From assembly GCA_040757115.1 (NCBI GenBank), contig JBFLYA010000168.1, forward strand, positions 1-8,212: a stretch of 8,212 nucleotides of DNA. Direction: 5' to 3'. This document shows positions 2,166 to 8,107 of the stretch, in pieces; the stretch's first letter is position 1; each line of letters starts with the position of its first letter. Under the pieces are notes generated by a model. It worked only from the letters and a program-made list of their open reading frames with translations, ran no database searches and was not told the DNA's origin. A program made the translations under genes and the position numbers. This stretch comes from a bacterium (GTDB lineage Bacteria; UBA9089; CG2-30-40-21; SBAY01).

Positions 2166-3188
2166 TTAATAATTTAGTATTGTGTCCCCAGAATTCCCAG
2201 AATTCCCACTGATTTGTCTCTCATATGGGCCAAGGAACCGCTCACCGTTGAAATGAATGATATGGCTTGGCGCCTCAGCGATCCAGACTTCGGTCTCCCA
2301 CGCGATATCAGAAATGAATTTCGTCATAGCTCGTCGAGAGAGAAAAGCAGTCACAAAGACCAGCCCCGCCGTAGTATCTTTAAATAACTCTTTTAACTCA
2401 TTGTGTCGCTTTAGACCAATAGGTCCGTGGCTTGTAACAGCTTCGATAAGGACAAGCCAATTCTTCTTCGGTAAATGAACAATAACATCAGGCATCTTCC
2501 CGTGTTCATCCAACATCAGTCCAAGATTGAAGAGATAGTCCTTCTCTACATGTCGCTGCTTGTTGCCTGTGTCGCCAACATAGATCAGTACCCCTCCAGG
2601 AGCAAATCTTGGACAAAACTCCTCAATAATTCTTCTGATAAGCTCGTTCTGACCACCAACCGTCAGCTTTAGTTGTTGACCATCGGGGAGATTAACTGGA
2701 ATCAGATCCATTTGACGCTCCCTTGGTTCAAGCCGACGAAGCGACTCAGAGTTGTTTATGAAATTCTTCAGAGAATCATTCCACGAGTGGGAACCATACC
2801 TATGGCAAAGATTCAAGAGCGTCGGTACTACTTGATAGCGGTTATCAGGACTATTCACAGGTCTTGTAGAATCATCTGGATTCTGTATAACCAAACCCAT
2901 CTGCACAAATTGGTGAATAGTGAATCGACGCACTGTTTCTCGGGTATTCGGGGCATACTTCTTGCCGAAATGTTTCTCAAAATAATTCATCATTTCGGTA
3001 ATACCAAGCATAGGTGCCGTAGCATCTGCCCATCGCTTCCGAGTTGTCATACCCAGTAGAGCAAGAAGCGTAAGAGCAGAACGCTCGTTCTGCTGTTCTT
3101 TTGGAACCTTAATCGACTCGAGGATGTTCAGTGCTTCAGAAACTCTCTTTGCGACTCCCGTAGGTTTGCTTTGTGATCGATCAGCCAT
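2166..3188 (-). CDS. Type II restriction endonuclease, BsuBI/PstI family
   Basis: This 340-residue protein resembles the PstI/BsuBI endonucleases, which are of similar length and cut CTGCAG. The C-terminal catalytic domain shows YVGDTGNK (about 203-209), PDVIVH (233-238, D234) and LIEAVTSHGP (247-256, E249-A-V251), a PD-(D/E)xK arrangement characteristic of this family. The N-terminal half is helical and probably holds the DNA-recognition part. Its start overlaps the methyltransferase stop by eight bases (ATGGCTGA), so translation is likely coupled and the modification enzyme is made first. Homologues seem to end near FLGPY (319-322). Here a repetitive tail, SGNSGNSGDT, follows and coincides with a nine-base DNA repeat (2181-2210), suggesting the stop was replaced by repeat sequence. 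Specificity for CTGCAG is inferred from the family. Confidence 0.9.
   Translation of the reverse strand: MADRSQSKPTGVAKRVSEALNILESIKVPKEQQNERSALTLLALLGMTTRKRWADATAPMLGITEMMNYFEKHFGKKYAPNTRETVRRFTIHQFVQMGLVIQNPDDSTRPVNSPDNRYQVVPTLLNLCHRYGSHSWNDSLKNFINNSESLRRLEPRERQMDLIPVNLPDGQQLKLTVGGQNELIRRIIEEFCPRFAPGGVLIYVGDTGNKQRHVEKDYLFNLGLMLDEHGKMPDVIVHLPKKNWLVLIEAVTSHGPIGLKRHNELKELFKDTTAGLVFVTAFLSRRAMTKFISDIAWETEVWIAEAPSHIIHFNGERFLGPYERQISGNSGNSGDTILNY
2181..2210 (-). repeat. Tandem GGGAATTCT repeat at the endonuclease 3' end
   Basis: On the minus strand GGGAATTCT occurs twice in tandem and runs into GGGGACACAATACT. It encodes the SGNSGNSGDT tail of the endonuclease. The string TTCTGGGGACACAATACT resembles a repeat often met near REP-associated transposases in bacterial genomes; that resemblance is from memory and is not proven here. 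Confidence 0.45.
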
Positions 3189-4743
3189 TGTAAATAGCCT
3201 CCTTAACTATGCGATCCAGTTCATCTTGAGGCGGAAATATCTTGCCGATTCGCCGCCCAAGGAATTCAAGCTTATGCCATGATGGATACCGCAAACAACG
3301 GAGGTCGGTGGCGTTCACTTGAGTGTGTCCACTGAACTGCCGAAAATAGGAATCTACGATTGTCGAGTTCAGAAACGCAGCAAGTCCCTTTGCTCTGGTC
3401 AGTGGCAACTCCGAGTCTAAAGCATGATAATAGTTTAAGTGATTTTCAAATGCAACCTTATAAGCTGGAACGCGACGAGGGTCATATACCGCTGCCACTA
3501 TCCGACGCCGTTCCTCCTTTGCTGAAAACCTCTTTACGAGAACATAACACTTCTGCGAGACGAAAAGTTCTTCTGCCCCTGGCTCAAGCAAGATAGCATT
3601 CGGCTTGCGAGTTTGATAATTAGGCCATTCGACAAAGCCACCCCGAAGGTGACAAGGATAGATAAGTGGAGCAGTATTCTCATCTGGACAGGGACGGAGT
3701 AAGTGTTTTGCTCGAAAATCTACGATTCGTCCGGTCGAGACTGCCAAGCCAAGATCTCTAAGATTCGAATCGAGTTTTTCAATCATATTCCTGATTGAAT
3801 CTCCATTGCTATCTGGGACAATACGAATGAAGAGATGAGGATCGTCAGGCCGAATAAGATCTGTGTGATCTGTTTTTCGAATTTTCAGGTTCGAATCGTT
3901 GAGATCAAGACTTGACGAGACAATTACTTTGTCGTTGATGGCCGGCGACTTAATTGCCTGAAATACGATATTTTCTTGTAAAATTCCGTCGTCGGCGAAG
4001 GCTCGATTACGCGAATCAAATACGTGAATGCGACGGAACTGCATTTCCTTTAGAAAAAAATAGCGGAAGGGTTCAAAATAAAGTCCATTACAGAAACTCC
4101 TTGGAGTGATAGCAACCATTTCTCCACCTGGGACGAGAAGTTTAGCTGTCACTGCCAGAAAGCCAGTATATAGGTTAGTTGTCTCGAGTCCAATAGATTG
4201 AAGCAACTTTCTCTCTCGGGATTTGGTATGAATTTTCCTATAGGGTGGATTGAGGATCGCACAGTCAAATCGCTCCTTCTCTCCAGTGATAAATAAATCG
4301 CCTGTGAATGAACTAATACCTGCTTCCAGGAAGTCCTGGTCAACAATACGTGCCTCAAATTGAATGCCCGCATCTTCACTCACTCTGCGGCAGAGATCAA
4401 GTGTCTTATGGAGATATGTGTTTAACAGAGGATCTATTTCATAGGTGGTCAAGGCTATCACTTTTGGACGCTGATGCCTCCGGCAAATTGAAACTATCAA
4501 AGCGGCCGAAAGCGAGCCTACTCCAGCTCCAGGGTCAAGAATGCGGATAAAGGATTTTCTGCATTTGAACATGTCGGCCATAAATATCGCAACCGACAAA
4601 GGTGTTAAAAATTGACCCATGAGAGCACGTCGCCGAGAGTCCAGTTGAAGAGTTACTTCCCTGCGGGCGACCTCAATTGATGACAGAAGTAAATTCTCAT
4701 CTGCTTTTATAGTTTGTTCGAGAACCTTTATTTGGGTGTTCAT
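3181..4743 (-). CDS. Adenine-specific DNA methyltransferase, PstI type
   Basis: This is the modification half of the restriction-modification pair, transferring a methyl group from S-adenosylmethionine to adenine N6 in the recognition site. In numbering from the upstream ATG at 4758 it shows motif X (GQFLTPLSVAIFMADMF, 48-64), the AdoMet-binding motif I (DPGAGVGSLS, 75-84), an acidic motif II (YEIDP, 106-110), motif III (DQDFLEAG, 140-147) and the catalytic NPPY (170-173). The remaining 350 residues would hold target recognition. I choose the start at 4743 (MNTQIK) because GGAAGAAG precedes it at suitable distance, while the ATG at 4758 lacks a ribosome site; either gives about 520 residues, close to M.PstI. 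The gene begins 36 bases after an attC core and overlaps the endonuclease gene downstream, so both form one two-gene cassette. Confidence 0.9.
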   Translation of the reverse strand: MNTQIKVLEQTIKADENLLLSSIEVARREVTLQLDSRRRALMGQFLTPLSVAIFMADMFKCRKSFIRILDPGAGVGSLSAALIVSICRRHQRPKVIALTTYEIDPLLNTYLHKTLDLCRRVSEDAGIQFEARIVDQDFLEAGISSFTGDLFITGEKERFDCAILNPPYRKIHTKSRERKLLQSIGLETTNLYTGFLAVTAKLLVPGGEMVAITPRSFCNGLYFEPFRYFFLKEMQFRRIHVFDSRNRAFADDGILQENIVFQAIKSPAINDKVIVSSSLDLNDSNLKIRKTDHTDLIRPDDPHLFIRIVPDSNGDSIRNMIEKLDSNLRDLGLAVSTGRIVDFRAKHLLRPCPDENTAPLIYPCHLRGGFVEWPNYQTRKPNAILLEPGAEELFVSQKCYVLVKRFSAKEERRRIVAAVYDPRRVPAYKVAFENHLNYYHALDSELPLTRAKGLAAFLNSTIVDSYFRQFSGHTQVNATDLRCLRYPSWHKLEFLGRRIGKIFPPQDELDRIVKEAIYNG

Positions 4744-4778
4744 TATTTCTTCTTCCATTCAATTACAATCTTTATATC

Positions 4779-4845
4779 CACTAACGACCAGGTTTAGACG
4801 CGACGGTGTGTCATCGCTGACATCGTTCGGAGCGTCTTATTATGC
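4779..4845 (-). repeat. attC: attC-like site, short, unrelated to the long family
   Basis: On the minus strand it runs from GCATAAT (4845-4839, a weak RYYYAAC core) to CGTTAGTG (4786-4779). The arms AGACGC...TGTCA (4795-4814) and TGACATCG...GCGTCT (4819-4836) pair imperfectly around a four-base loop with unpaired bases, as in attC. It lies three bases after the stop of the 318-residue gene and 36 bases before the methyltransferase start, exactly where a cassette boundary is expected. Both cores depart from consensus, hence moderate confidence. Confidence 0.65.
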
Positions 4846-4848
4846 ACA

Positions 4849-5805
4849 TTAGAAAAGTGGTAAGTTGCCAGCATTCGTATCAAGTGCTTCGATTTTAGAA
4901 AAAATAATCTTCGGTTTACTTGCGTTGTAGCCACCGAAGTCGTCCAATCTGCTAATTGATCCATAAATGCGGCAATTTACGAAAATCGCATTCTTATAAT
5001 TAACAATGCTTCCCGTCTCCGGGTAACAGGCCAAAATGTGGTCCTTATACATGAATCCAAGACTATTGGTATTTTCGTTTCCTTTCGTGATGTGCCCTTC
5101 CAGAGTTACTTCCTGTCCATGAACAAGTTCTGGAAAAAGAATCTCTTCTTCGACATCGAGTGTAAAAATTCTCCGTTGTTGGTAAGGAATAGATTCTCGT
5201 ATCAATTCGCCATTCTTGTATACGCCGATTTCCAGTCTACGCTCTTCTTCAATCAGTTCCGCCATTTTCTTGAGAAGTCCAGGGTTAACAGGGATATAAA
5301 ACTCGAAGAACTTCTTTGGAATAAAAAGGTACTCCCCCTTTTGATTTGGTATTCCTATTTCGGTGTTCTCATTTCTAAACTGCGGATTTTCAAATTTCTT
5401 TCTTATTAGTCCATCCAGATGTTTGCCAATACGGATAGTCCATTGAATCGCTTCCACCGCATGAACAAAAATATCTTTTAGTCCCTTCTTCTCGAAATCC
5501 TTGTCGGCCATTTTCTTTGCAGCTGTCACTAAGTAGGTTGTTACACCAGTTGTTACACCAACACCGACGGCTCTTACAACCCAATCAATGAGGCTGGTGG
5601 GAATGAGGGCTTCCCAAGAACCTTTACGTAACCGAACAGGAATTTCGAAATCTAAATCGCGCAGTGACGGTGATTGTTGACCAACAAAAAATCGTATCGC
5701 TTCATCAAAGCCCAGTAGGGCTTGGGCTGCTTTTCGAGCATCAAGTAGACCGTCCTCGATAAGCTTCCCTTCATATTTGAGATATCCGATATATTCTTCG
5801 TCCAT
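4849..5805 (-). CDS. Cassette-encoded protein of unknown function, possible membrane segment
   Basis: I do not recognise this 318-residue protein. Three parts can be seen. Residues 1-65 are mixed, with the segment YEGKLIEDGLLDARKAAQAL and GFDEAIRFFVGQQSP, which looks like a conserved small domain. Residues 71-95 (SLIDWVVRAV to YLVTA) are hydrophobic and glycine/threonine rich and could be one membrane helix, or a buried helical hairpin. A charged helical middle (100-190) follows. The C-terminal third (about 210-308) is rich in beta-strand patterns (EVTLEGHITKG, IFVNCRIYGSI) and might be a barrel-like domain. It fills one cassette, from 20 bases after one attC to three bases before the next. 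No Shine-Dalgarno sits close to the ATG; a five-codon minicistron ends one base before it, so translation may be by reinitiation. A role in defence is possible from its company but unproven. Confidence 0.8.
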   Translation of the reverse strand: MDEEYIGYLKYEGKLIEDGLLDARKAAQALLGFDEAIRFFVGQQSPSLRDLDFEIPVRLRKGSWEALIPTSLIDWVVRAVGVGVTTGVTTYLVTAAKKMADKDFEKKGLKDIFVHAVEAIQWTIRIGKHLDGLIRKKFENPQFRNENTEIGIPNQKGEYLFIPKKFFEFYIPVNPGLLKKMAELIEEERRLEIGVYKNGELIRESIPYQQRRIFTLDVEEEILFPELVHGQEVTLEGHITKGNENTNSLGFMYKDHILACYPETGSIVNYKNAIFVNCRIYGSISRLDDFGGYNASKPKIIFSKIEALDTNAGNLPLF

Positions 5806-5825: not shown

Positions 5826-5957
5826 GCCTAACGATAAAGTTCAGGTGCGGCGGGGAGAATTACCACAAAAGTTTGATAGCAAGATAAAACTTTGAGAGAC
5901 CACAAAACTCTGACCACGGCACAGTCCCCCGCCGTCAACTGCAACGCAGGGTTAGAC
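5826..5957 (-). repeat. attC: attC site, long family, copy 2
   Basis: On the minus strand it runs from GTCTAAC (5957-5951) to CGTTAGGC (5833-5826). Both cores match consensus and the CGGCGGGG/CCCCGCCG stem is intact. Over its length it is nearly identical to copies 1 and 4. It closes the cassette that has no gene and lies directly ahead of the unknown 318-residue gene. Confidence 0.85.
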
Positions 5958-6050
5958 AAAAGCTTTAATTCGCTGTTTTTTCCCTTTTCCTCTGCCTCAC
6001 CGAATTATTGTGCATTCCACATTCACGGTTTGACCCTAAAATCTCCCCTA
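5958..6050. repeat. Duplicated cassette tail, copy A
   Basis: Following attC copy 2 in plus coordinates, this stretch matches 6360-6451 almost base for base (AAAAGCTTTRATTCGCTGT, CTCTGCCTCACCGAATTATT, TGCATTCCACATTCACGGTT). With the attC, a unit of about 220 bp is duplicated: 5829-6050 and 6230-6451. On the minus strand it is the 3' end of a cassette whose gene is absent. Confidence 0.75.
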
Positions 6051-6058
6051 TTATTTTA

Positions 6059-6212
6059 CCACGAAGAGCACGAAGGTCACGAAGATTGGACAAGACAAAT
6101 CTTTTTCTGTCTTTTTTCAATCTTTCTACATTAAAATTTATTAACAAGCCAACTTTAATATTTGCTAACTTTATTAGATATTTCATCAAATTTCACTTCG
6201 TGTCCTTCGTGG
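6059..6212. repeat. Palindromic element with CCACGAAG ends
   Basis: The left end CCACGAAGAGCACGAAGG (6059-6076) is mirrored by CACTTCGTGTCCTTCGTGG (6194-6212). The interior, about 110 bp, is AT-rich and non-coding. The element fills nearly all of the third cassette upstream of the duplicated tail, ending about 15 bases from attC copy 3. This CACGAAG repeat class is common between genes in environmental bacteria. It appears to have inserted into, or replaced, the cassette body. Confidence 0.65.
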
Positions 6213-6226
6213 TTTAATCTCTTTTA

Positions 6227-6359
6227 GTCTAACGATAAAGTTCAGGTGCGGCGGGGAGAATTACCACAAAAGTTTGATAGCAAGATAAAACTTTGAGAGA
6301 CTACAAAACTCTGACCACGGCACAGTCCCCAGGCGGTCAACTGCAACGCAGGGTTAGAC
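6227..6359 (-). repeat. attC: attC site, long family, copy 3 (altered stem)
   Basis: On the minus strand it runs from GTCTAAC (6359-6353) to CGTTAGAC (6234-6227), both good cores. It matches copy 2 except for a change in one arm: TCCCCAGGCGGTC replaces TCCCCCGCCGTC (about 6326-6338), which weakens pairing with CAGGTGCGGCGGGGA. It closes the toxin-antitoxin cassette. Confidence 0.82.
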
Positions 6360-6451
6360 AAAAGCTTTGATTCGCTGTCTTTTCCTTTTCCTCTGCCTCA
6401 CCGAATTATTGTGCATTCCACATTCACGGTTGACCCTAATATCTCCCTTAC
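6360..6451. repeat. Duplicated cassette tail, copy B
   Basis: This is the untranslated 3' tail between the PIN gene stop (6485) and attC copy 3. It is nearly identical to 5958-6050, with a few substitutions and one-base indels. Its presence after a complete gene suggests this is the parental copy. Confidence 0.75.
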
Positions 6452-6484: not shown

Positions 6485-6892
6485 TTATCGTAACCAAAAG
6501 AATTTAACCAATTTCGCATTATCTATAGGATCGAATTCTTTATGATCAGTTGTCACAACCTTACCCTTTAAAGTTTCTGCAAGTCCAATAACGAATGCAT
6601 CTGCTAACGAAATTTGGTAAGATGCTTTATATTTTCCGACTATCTTTAGAAATTCAATAGACATATCTTCTATGTATCGGATAGGAAGTTGCTCCAAGTC
6701 ATTAAGCACTTTTTCTGCTCGTTTTATACCGTCCGCCTTGTAATATCCATAATAAACCTCACAGAGATTAATATGATGAAGATAGACATTATTATCTTTA
6801 TTTTCTAAGAGGTCTTTTACCTTTTCTCCGCCTTCTTCCGCATTGAGAAAGGCAATGACTGCACAGGCATCCAGAATAAAGGAATTCTTCAT
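6485..6892 (-). CDS. PIN-domain toxin, VapC-like ribonuclease
   Basis: This 135-residue protein is a typical single PIN domain, expected to be a metal-dependent RNase that blocks translation when freed from its antitoxin. The acidic residues that bind metal are in place: D8 in FILDAC, E45 in NLCEVYYG, D98 in SLADAFVIG and D116 in VTTDHKEFD. Its ATG shares one base with the antitoxin stop (TAATG), so the two are translationally coupled, the usual toxin-antitoxin layout with antitoxin first. The pair forms a single cassette ending at attC copy 3; such pairs are frequent stabilising cargo in large integrons. The RNA target cannot be told from the sequence. Confidence 0.88.
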   Translation of the reverse strand: MKNSFILDACAVIAFLNAEEGGEKVKDLLENKDNNVYLHHINLCEVYYGYYKADGIKRAEKVLNDLEQLPIRYIEDMSIEFLKIVGKYKASYQISLADAFVIGLAETLKGKVVTTDHKEFDPIDNAKLVKFFWLR

Positions 6893-7122
6893 TATCTATA
6901 CTCCAATTTTTTCTCTTTCGCCTTTATCTTTGTAAAAAGGTCTGTTGTAAGGCTCGATCCCTTTGTTGAACCAAAGACCTTTTCAACAGCACTTTCCCTG
7001 CCGATTTTTATTGTCAGCATTTTGGTTCGTAAAAATTCGGTAAAGTCATAGACTTCCTTCTTTTTATCGTCCGGTAGAATATCAAAAATTCGTATGAAAT
7101 CTTTTGTCAATATTGTTTCCAT
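6892..7122 (-). CDS. Antitoxin partner of the PIN toxin
   Basis: A small charged protein of 76 residues encoded directly ahead of the PIN toxin and overlapping it by one base. The N-terminal half (FIRIFDILPDDKKKEVYDFTEFLRTK) is helical and resembles the DUF2281-like or VapB-type antitoxins with the 'LP...K.EV.DF.EFL' pattern. The C-terminal half, basic and probably disordered until bound, would wrap the toxin. I choose the start at 7122 because a strong AGGAG stands seven bases upstream. A longer in-frame version starting at 7176 also has a good ribosome site, but its extra 18 residues look like the beginning of a PIN gene. Assignment rests mainly on gene order and size. Confidence 0.75.
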   Translation of the reverse strand: METILTKDFIRIFDILPDDKKKEVYDFTEFLRTKMLTIKIGRESAVEKVFGSTKGSSLTTDLFTKIKAKEKKLEYR

Positions 7123-7176
7123 TGCTTTCTCCTTTCTAAAAACCGAAGTTTCTAGATAAATACTATTTTTCTTCAT
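7123..7176 (-). pseudogene. Remnant of a PIN-gene start, in frame with the antitoxin
   Basis: The ATG at 7176, preceded by AGAGAGG at five bases, encodes MKKNSIYLETSVFRKEKA before reaching the antitoxin ATG. MKKNSIYLETSVF is the usual N-terminus of many PIN-domain toxins, whose first acidic residue lies in this I-Y-L-(D/E)-T-S motif. The rest of that gene is missing. Either it is a deletion scar, or the extended antitoxin is a real product. Only 13-14 residues carry the resemblance. Confidence 0.45.
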
Positions 7177-7279: not shown

Positions 7280-7351
7280 GTCTAACGACTAAGCTCACCG
7301 GCGGCAATGGAGCGCAGCGGAATTGCCGTCCGGTGCAGCGCCTTGTTAGCC
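7280..7351 (-). repeat. attC: attC site, short classical type
   Basis: On the minus strand it runs from GGCTAAC (7351-7345) through AAGGCGCTGCACCGG to CGTTAGAC (7287-7280). The arms CACCGGCGGCAAT (7296-7308) and ATTGCCGTCCGGTG (7322-7335) pair perfectly except for one unpaired base, the hallmark extrahelical base of attC. The TAA stop of the glycosylase gene lies inside the first core. At 72 bp it has the size and look of attC sites from proteobacterial integrons and is unlike the long family here. Confidence 0.92.
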
Positions 7352-8107
7352 ATTCTCATTCTGTTTCGCAGTTGGGCAAAGGTCTTTCATGTAGCAGTCG
7401 CCACATACTGGGCCGTCTGACTTACACCAGTTTCTGCCTATCTCCCAGCATGGCAAGTCCATCATTCCTGGGAACTCTGGATAAAGTGCCCGTGCCCTGT
7501 CTATCACTTGTTCAACGGTAACGTCGGCGGAACATAGACCAAGTCGGGAGAAGACTCGACATACATGTACATCCGCTGAGATGTCAATTGAGGAGTAGTC
7601 CGAAAAGGGAATCTTGAAATCGCGTGCGAGAATATTGGCGGCCATGCTACCGATTTTGGGACCAACCCCTTCGAATTCCCGGAAACGATATACAACCTCC
7701 GCACTGGAAGGCTTGCCTTTCCAGATAATGGCAGCATCACCCTCATAGTCGTTCTTGATTCGCTGCACCGCTGAATAGAAGTGATCGGTCATCGTGTCAA
7801 CGAACCGATGGAGAGGTTCCGGTTCCCTCATGAGACGTTTCACATCTTGCCGCGATAGTTCACTCATCCTTTGCACCGAAAACCCGCCGATCTTCTGCGA
7901 AATGCGATATGGAATCAGCCATGCTCTCTCCGCTCTGACTTGACGATCCATGAGGCATGCTAGGACGAAAGCATGCGGATGATTGTCCAGGTCATTCAGC
8001 AAGGCATCGGCCTGTGGTTCCTTGGTGAAGGTAATCAGCTGCTTCGGCGCGCGGAACAATATTTGCCCGTGTTCAACCAGTCTGTCGCGTATTGATTTCT
8101 CGCTCAT
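7346..8107 (-). CDS. Endonuclease III-like HhH-GPD DNA glycosylase with 4Fe-4S loop
   Basis: This 253-residue protein belongs to the base-excision-repair superfamily that removes damaged or mismatched bases. The helix-hairpin-helix FEGVGPKIGSMAANIL (145-160) contains K151 at the place of the lyase lysine of endonuclease III. DVHVCRVFSRLGL (179-191) carries D179 at the place of the catalytic aspartate. Four cysteines, C228-x6-C235-x2-C238-x5-C244, match the iron-sulfur loop spacing of endonuclease III exactly. The first 130 residues are longer than usual and divergent, so substrate is unknown. The start at 8107 has AGGAG five bases upstream, formed by the end of the attC core. The stop lies within the downstream attC, so the gene fills its cassette completely. 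Its base composition is more GC-rich than the neighbouring toxin-antitoxin cassette, which fits separate origins. Confidence 0.87.
   Translation of the reverse strand: MSEKSIRDRLVEHGQILFRAPKQLITFTKEPQADALLNDLDNHPHAFVLACLMDRQVRAERAWLIPYRISQKIGGFSVQRMSELSRQDVKRLMREPEPLHRFVDTMTDHFYSAVQRIKNDYEGDAAIIWKGKPSSAEVVYRFREFEGVGPKIGSMAANILARDFKIPFSDYSSIDISADVHVCRVFSRLGLCSADVTVEQVIDRARALYPEFPGMMDLPCWEIGRNWCKSDGPVCGDCYMKDLCPTAKQNENG

Follow-up and report, generated by a model that had tools for sequence, protein, structure and literature searches.

The 8,212-nucleotide stretch of DNA analysed here, referred to as the window, carries on its minus strand an ATG-initiated open reading frame (ORF) of 318 amino acids, which fills exactly the interval 4849-5805. 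This ORF is a real gene beyond what chance would give, as judged from full-length homologues in five other bacteria and from dN/dS. All accessory ORFs of the array in which it lies are on the minus strand and, read on that strand, the cassettes follow in the order HhH-GPD glycosylase, VapB/VapC, a piece of ~270 nt lacking a convincing ORF, the studied gene, and a BsuBI/PstI-type restriction-modification (R-M) pair (Table 1). A preliminary description of this DNA had placed the gene next to an R-M cassette and a toxin-antitoxin cassette, and the neighbours are indeed an R-M cassette (BsuBI/PstI endonuclease and Eco57I-type methyltransferase) and a VapBC cassette within a true integron array.

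Table 1. Features in and around the studied gene, with window positions, strand and type of evidence
Feature	Position	Strand	Evidence
Studied ORF, member of phrog_32975	4849..5805	-	ORF call, profile match, homologues, dN/dS
BsuBI/PstI-type restriction endonuclease, in the cassette of the Eco57I-type methyltransferase	2166..3188	-	family match
Eco57I-type adenine DNA methyltransferase, cassette adjoining the studied gene	3181..4758	-	family match
Putative own attC of the studied cassette, differing from the array's common type, GTTAG end	4779..4849	-	position and core sequence
Predicted OB-fold, residues 222-317	4855..5142	-	VIA-align, Foldseek
Helix and mixed alpha/beta module common with LAPAL, residues 109-219	5149..5481	-	hhalign, model
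Weakly hydrophobic, low-confidence segment, residues 70-95	5521..5598	-	hydropathy, model
N-terminal beta-alpha-beta-beta domain, residues 1-69, with degenerate LAPAL motif (DARKAAQAL) and GS motif	5599..5805	-	profile, conservation, model
Common-type attC of the upstream neighbouring cassette	5828..5958	-	43 genome matches
VapC toxin (6485-6892) and VapB-like antitoxin (6892-7176), one cassette	6485..7176	-	family match

A conserved integron cassette

The 98-nt repeats at 1985, 5827, 6228 and 8115 of the window are the constant part of attC sites, with a CTAAC core first and a GTTAG core last in minus-strand reading. This common attC has 43 matches in the genome, on many contigs and mostly at 97-100% identity, and an IntI-type tyrosine recombinase of 460 amino acids is encoded on contig 39 near three more attC copies. 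The start codon of the studied gene lies ~22 bases past the upstream common attC, which folds better than shuffled sequences on one strand (z -3.2). The core TGCATAAT stands directly after the stop codon, as does TGCATAAC in the homologues from two Pseudomonadota genomes, G667 and G1002. Compared with shuffles, the attC of the G667 homologue folds far better (z -5.0). The hairpins of the window's putative own attC (z -0.4) and of the G1002 attC (z -1.0) are no better than shuffles, and these two calls therefore rest on position and core sequence. An integron cassette was taken to be an ORF with attC sites at its bounds, within an array, whose genome also has an IntI. From the repeated attC sites, the IntI gene and the accessory ORFs on one strand, it follows that the studied gene is an integron cassette in a chromosomal array.

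Other features of the array and genome were recorded along the way. The cassette at 5959-6228 (~270 nt) has a common attC on both sides, holds no convincing ORF and contains an inverted repeat (6053-6075 and 6196-6218). A 52-nt sequence occurs with 98% identity at 5979-6030 and 6380-6431, beside two consecutive attC sites, and looks like a duplicated cassette edge. The attC of the HhH-GPD glycosylase cassette (7284-7346) is of a further type, differing from the common one, and its folding is better than that of shuffles (z -2.4). The intact IntI-like protein of contig 39 has an N-terminal extension of ~130 amino acids, and broken intI-like fragments lie on contigs C30, C63, C118 and C324 (L038-L044) of the same genome.

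Outside the window, the searches yielded five homologues with 43-82% identity: one in a Nitrosomonas MAG (82%), one on a Vibrio sp. megaplasmid (43-45%) and one each in the three Pseudomonadota genomes G667, G1002 and G1012 (47-50%). The other 97 genomes of the search among relatives were without a homologue and matches elsewhere were rare, a distribution that is thus the one of a transferred gene. The dN/dS values are 0.08/2.1 for the window gene and its Nitrosomonas counterpart and 0.04/0.86 for two other copies, with an overall ratio of about 0.04-0.05. Because synonymous sites are near saturation in the Nitrosomonas comparison while dN is 0.08, the gene is, to judge from these substitutions, under strong purifying selection.

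The surroundings differ in each copy. The G667 homologue is the third ORF counted from the integron integrase, in a cassette near intI; the Vibrio copy neighbours a PLD nuclease, and a PD-(D/E)XK gene is near the G1002 copy. After the G1012 copy come three ORFs of 425, 363 and 166 amino acids (L054, 9973-13299), which have no family match above cut-off and of which the 425- and 363-amino-acid genes are closely spaced. The lone Nitrosomonas copy (L002) has an apparent frameshift near its residue 215, either biological or an assembly error, and sits between glgB and a glucokinase-like gene. Near-identical CTAATTTTAGTTRTG repeats flank it (~7967-7981 and 8946-8960), and its similarity to the window ends at the stop codon. 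It may be a cassette that was inserted at a non-integron site and has lost its attC hairpin. A fixed partner gene was sought across the copies and none was found. The best explanation is that the studied gene is free-standing cargo moved by integrons among distantly related bacteria. The preliminary description had proposed a search for homologues and their neighbours, and had named a match to a housekeeping family or a lack of conservation beyond this genome as outcomes that would speak against it; the search yielded five homologues and no fixed partner, conservation beyond the genome is clear, and no housekeeping match appeared.

Relationship to the LAPAL superfamily

The protein belongs to phrog_32975 of PHROGs v4, a family with a function-less name, with a full-length match (E 3e-92, residues 4-314 of 318), and the other copies were found with or match the same profile. 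At threshold it matches nothing in Pfam, NCBIfam or PADLOC. The label of an unrecognised cassette protein therefore holds, with the unannotated phrog_32975 as its sole match in a genuine integron cassette. Below threshold, weak matches point one way, to LAPAL_fam, phrog_3243, DUF7946 and PDC-S42. LAPAL_fam (NF053583) scores 15 bits (E 0.013) against a curated cut-off of 60 bits, so the protein is a distant relative of that family and not a member. DUF7946 (PF25678), a Pfam entry without a function, matches the N-terminal domain weakly (E 0.28, below the gathering cut-off), with better values for the Nitrosomonas homologue (E 0.0035) and for one LAPAL member (E 2.9e-5). The PADLOC model PDC-S42 has no match in the window protein and a weak one in a homologue (L045, E 0.0043). 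With this model at E 0.001, 17 of the 349 Pseudomonadota genomes searched (~5%) gave matches, some of them C-terminal only. Since seven fetched PDC-S42-matching proteins all match both LAPAL_fam and phrog_3243, the names LAPAL NF053583, phrog_3243 and PDC-S42 denote one family.

Profile-profile comparison connects this family with the studied one. The hhalign probability is 94.4%, and it is 95.6% (score 64.7, E 1e-8, columns 9-219) against a deeper LAPAL profile made by adding 41 viral representatives to the earlier one, as compared with scores of at most 23.5 for 30 column-shuffled controls and 20.6 for a reversed one. By this comparison, residues 8-219 are homologous to LAPAL proteins and contain the superfamily core. 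The two are alike in size, in this core, in the pattern Y-x-G ... D-x-R ... A-x-A-L ... GS and in their accessory-gene habitat. They differ in that identity is ~9-16%, scores lie below all family cut-offs, the hydrophobic segment is weaker in the studied protein, and the genes reside in integron cassettes instead of prophages. Their C-terminal domains both look beta-rich but the profiles fail to align. The best explanation is that the studied protein represents a diverged branch, adapted to integrons, within the LAPAL (PDC-S42/phrog_3243) superfamily. Both phrog_32975, as an unnamed PHROG, and LAPAL/PDC-S42/DUF7946 existed already; the entry for phrog_32975 as returned mentions neither an integron habitat nor LAPAL, and what appears to be new is the link of phrog_32975 to LAPAL/PDC-S42, together with its integron habitat and predicted OB-fold.

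Other candidate relatives were considered. Five proteins of ~300-323 amino acids (L062, L066, L067, L068 and L070) with an N-terminal HYYL...H.MDA motif form a separate family, which shares the C-terminal half alone with LAPAL (hhalign 81%) and resembles that half and not the studied protein. DUF6575, a domain that occurs in a demonstrated defence system of E. coli (PMC9519451), drew attention because of this occurrence and because the studied model matched the fold of a viral protein named after DUF6575 (E 9e-7, with a TM of only 0.29); by profile, the studied family showed no similarity to either of two proteins that have DUF6575-type matches. A direct search of viral contigs with the studied protein and its orthologues found no relatives, and in annotated phages the studied family found none at E 1e-5 or 0.01 and, at E 10, tail-sheath matches of chance level only. 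The best match to a solved structure by sequence was likewise at chance level (E 0.5).

The LAPAL genes themselves are carried by temperate phages, and by plasmids too, as accessory genes. In Lactobacillus phage A2 the gene is between the lysin and the integrase, in Listeria phage vB_LmoS_188 it has a 'putative superinfection immunity protein' on one side and the integrase on the other, in Bifidobacterium phage PMBT6 it is beside the integrase, and in a Vibrio tectilivirus it is three genes away from an integrase; large plasmids carry some of the LAPAL genes. Directly upstream of LAPAL in IMG/VR contigs, where some of the 31 ORFs were called mechanically and are perhaps no genes, the CI-repressor domains Peptidase_S24 and HTH_3 occur in seven ORFs each, Mu-type Phage_tail_S in four, and Bro-N and P63C in one each. 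An integrase lies within 6 kb in 6 of the 41 representative viral copies, according to a low-sensitivity search built from four integrases only. The pattern is one of cargo inserted at various positions, many of them within the immunity region. Genes such as lambda rexAB and P22 sieA act in superinfection exclusion or immunity of prophages, and the sites of several LAPAL genes, in immunity regions or adjacent to an integrase, are comparable, which is an analogy only. For genes positioned next to integrases and repressors, the NF053583 name, 'putative phage structural protein', is a poor fit.

Predicted structure and the hydrophobic segment

A first AlphaFold2 model, built from 6 sequences, was of unusable quality (pLDDT 46.1, pTM 0.36). 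With LAPAL relatives added and the Vibrio plasmid homologue left out of the modelling alignments, pLDDT rose to 77.0 and pTM to 0.68, a rise that supports the LAPAL link without proving it, because any fitting deeper alignment can raise pLDDT. In this model the small N-terminal domain of the preliminary description is seen at residues 5-69 (strand 5-12, helix 23-44, strands 57-69), and residues 1-69 are the most conserved part of the protein. The proposed helical middle is borne out for helix 109-130 and gives way to a mixed alpha/beta module at 140-215. The expected beta-rich end appears as a beta barrel at 232-307. VIA-align compared residues 222-317 with the OB domains of AsnRS/AspRS, PriB, RPA and CST at Z up to 9.1, a match that is modest but above background, given that Z < 8 may reflect a common arrangement only; the best E with Foldseek alone was 2e-3 for this region. 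Thus, the structure prediction and fold search suggested beforehand lead to a predicted OB-fold at residues 222-317. The likeness to AspRS/AsnRS anticodon-binding, PriB, RPA and CST domains is one of predicted fold, and since OB-folds are common it does not assure nucleic-acid binding.

The preliminary description also called the protein possibly membrane-anchored through one hydrophobic segment at residues 71-95. These residues do lie where the protein is most hydrophobic, and the LAPAL relatives run from comparable values up to a convincing segment in some of them (Kyte-Doolittle 2.1-2.2, near-zero insertion energy), so that a constitutive anchor by which the protein acts on the membrane might be imagined. 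By the simple scales used for this assessment, however, the 19-residue Kyte-Doolittle maximum is 1.49, below the usual transmembrane cut-off of 1.6, and it is lower still (1.16-1.30) in all four full-length orthologues tested. The segment has a summed biological-scale energy of about +5 to +6 kcal/mol and contains polar or charged residues. Residues 70-105 are helical in the model at low confidence, with pLDDT below 50 for most of 71-95. On these values, residues 71-95 do not make a convincing transmembrane helix, because of which the membrane-anchored reading is not supported, and a constitutive anchor seems improbable.

Possible roles

In the literature searched, no activity is reported for the studied family or for LAPAL/DUF7946/PDC-S42, and PDC-S42 itself is a phage-defence candidate only. 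The cargo habitat, the prophage immunity-region neighbours of LAPAL, the PADLOC candidate listing, the defence-type neighbours and a published base rate together make a role as cargo for phage defence or superinfection exclusion, including the general idea of nucleic-acid sensing, the leading explanation, which we put a little short of an even chance. The defence-type neighbours are R-M in the window, the PLD nuclease in Vibrio and PD-(D/E)XK in G1002; they are weak evidence alone, because integron arrays mix unrelated cassettes. As for the base rate, anti-phage systems are encoded by 20% of the function-unknown cassettes in the chromosomal integron of V. cholerae (Darracq et al. 2025, as stated in PMC12444791). 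Since the distant relatives LAPAL/PDC-S42 of temperate phages are a phage-defence candidate, it was reasonable to name this gene beforehand as a candidate for an activity not yet described, and as a real, conserved and mobile cassette related to them it is a good guess for a single-gene antiviral protein.

Alternatively, the predicted OB-fold, closest to tRNA-synthetase anticodon-binding, PriB, RPA and CST domains, and the LAPAL genes on large plasmids would also suit a regulatory or DNA-metabolism protein outside defence, for example in ssDNA/RNA handling or in plasmid or phage replication control, spread by mobile elements. Such a role is fairly unlikely, as neighbours vary in each copy without fixed partner genes, and free-standing cassettes seldom carry replication functions. 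The absence of a partner also bears on the idea of a toxin that belongs to a toxin-antitoxin or immunity pair and has lost its partner or has it encoded at another place: toxin-antitoxin cassettes abound in integrons and VapBC is two cassettes away, but the studied cassette has no partner ORF and the other copies no consistent one, which leaves this idea very doubtful. That the integron captured a relative of a phage structural protein, as the NCBI name of LAPAL and the Phage_tail_S morphogenesis family in 4 of 31 viral neighbours could hint, is less plausible still. In annotated phages LAPAL genes adjoin integrase or immunity genes outside the head/tail module, they also occur on plasmids, and neither the solved-structure sequence search nor the listed fold matches gave a structural protein.

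Returning to defence, it is tentatively proposed, with considerable doubt as to this particular form, that the protein is an undescribed single-gene anti-phage system common to prophages (the LAPAL branch) and integrons, built of an oligomerising LAPAL-type core, a conditionally exposed hydrophobic segment and an OB-fold sensor of phage nucleic acid. It would protect the cell from incoming phage or other foreign DNA. The predicted C-terminal OB-fold would bind nucleic acid made or exposed in infection, the N-terminal LAPAL-type core would drive self-association, and the flexible, glycine-containing hydrophobic segment would switch state on activation, so that infection is blocked or the cell arrested. 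The low hydrophobicity of this segment gives little confidence in a step at the membrane. Defence, ligand, self-association and effector step are all points that we infer.

If a defence role is true, one uncharacterised family would be a portable immunity gene that serves integrons and plasmids as well as temperate phages, and the ~5% of sampled Pseudomonadota genomes with a PDC-S42 match would gain a function open to testing. The public name 'putative phage structural protein' would be put in question. Furthermore, the finding would add to the view of function-unknown integron cassettes as stores of antiviral genes.
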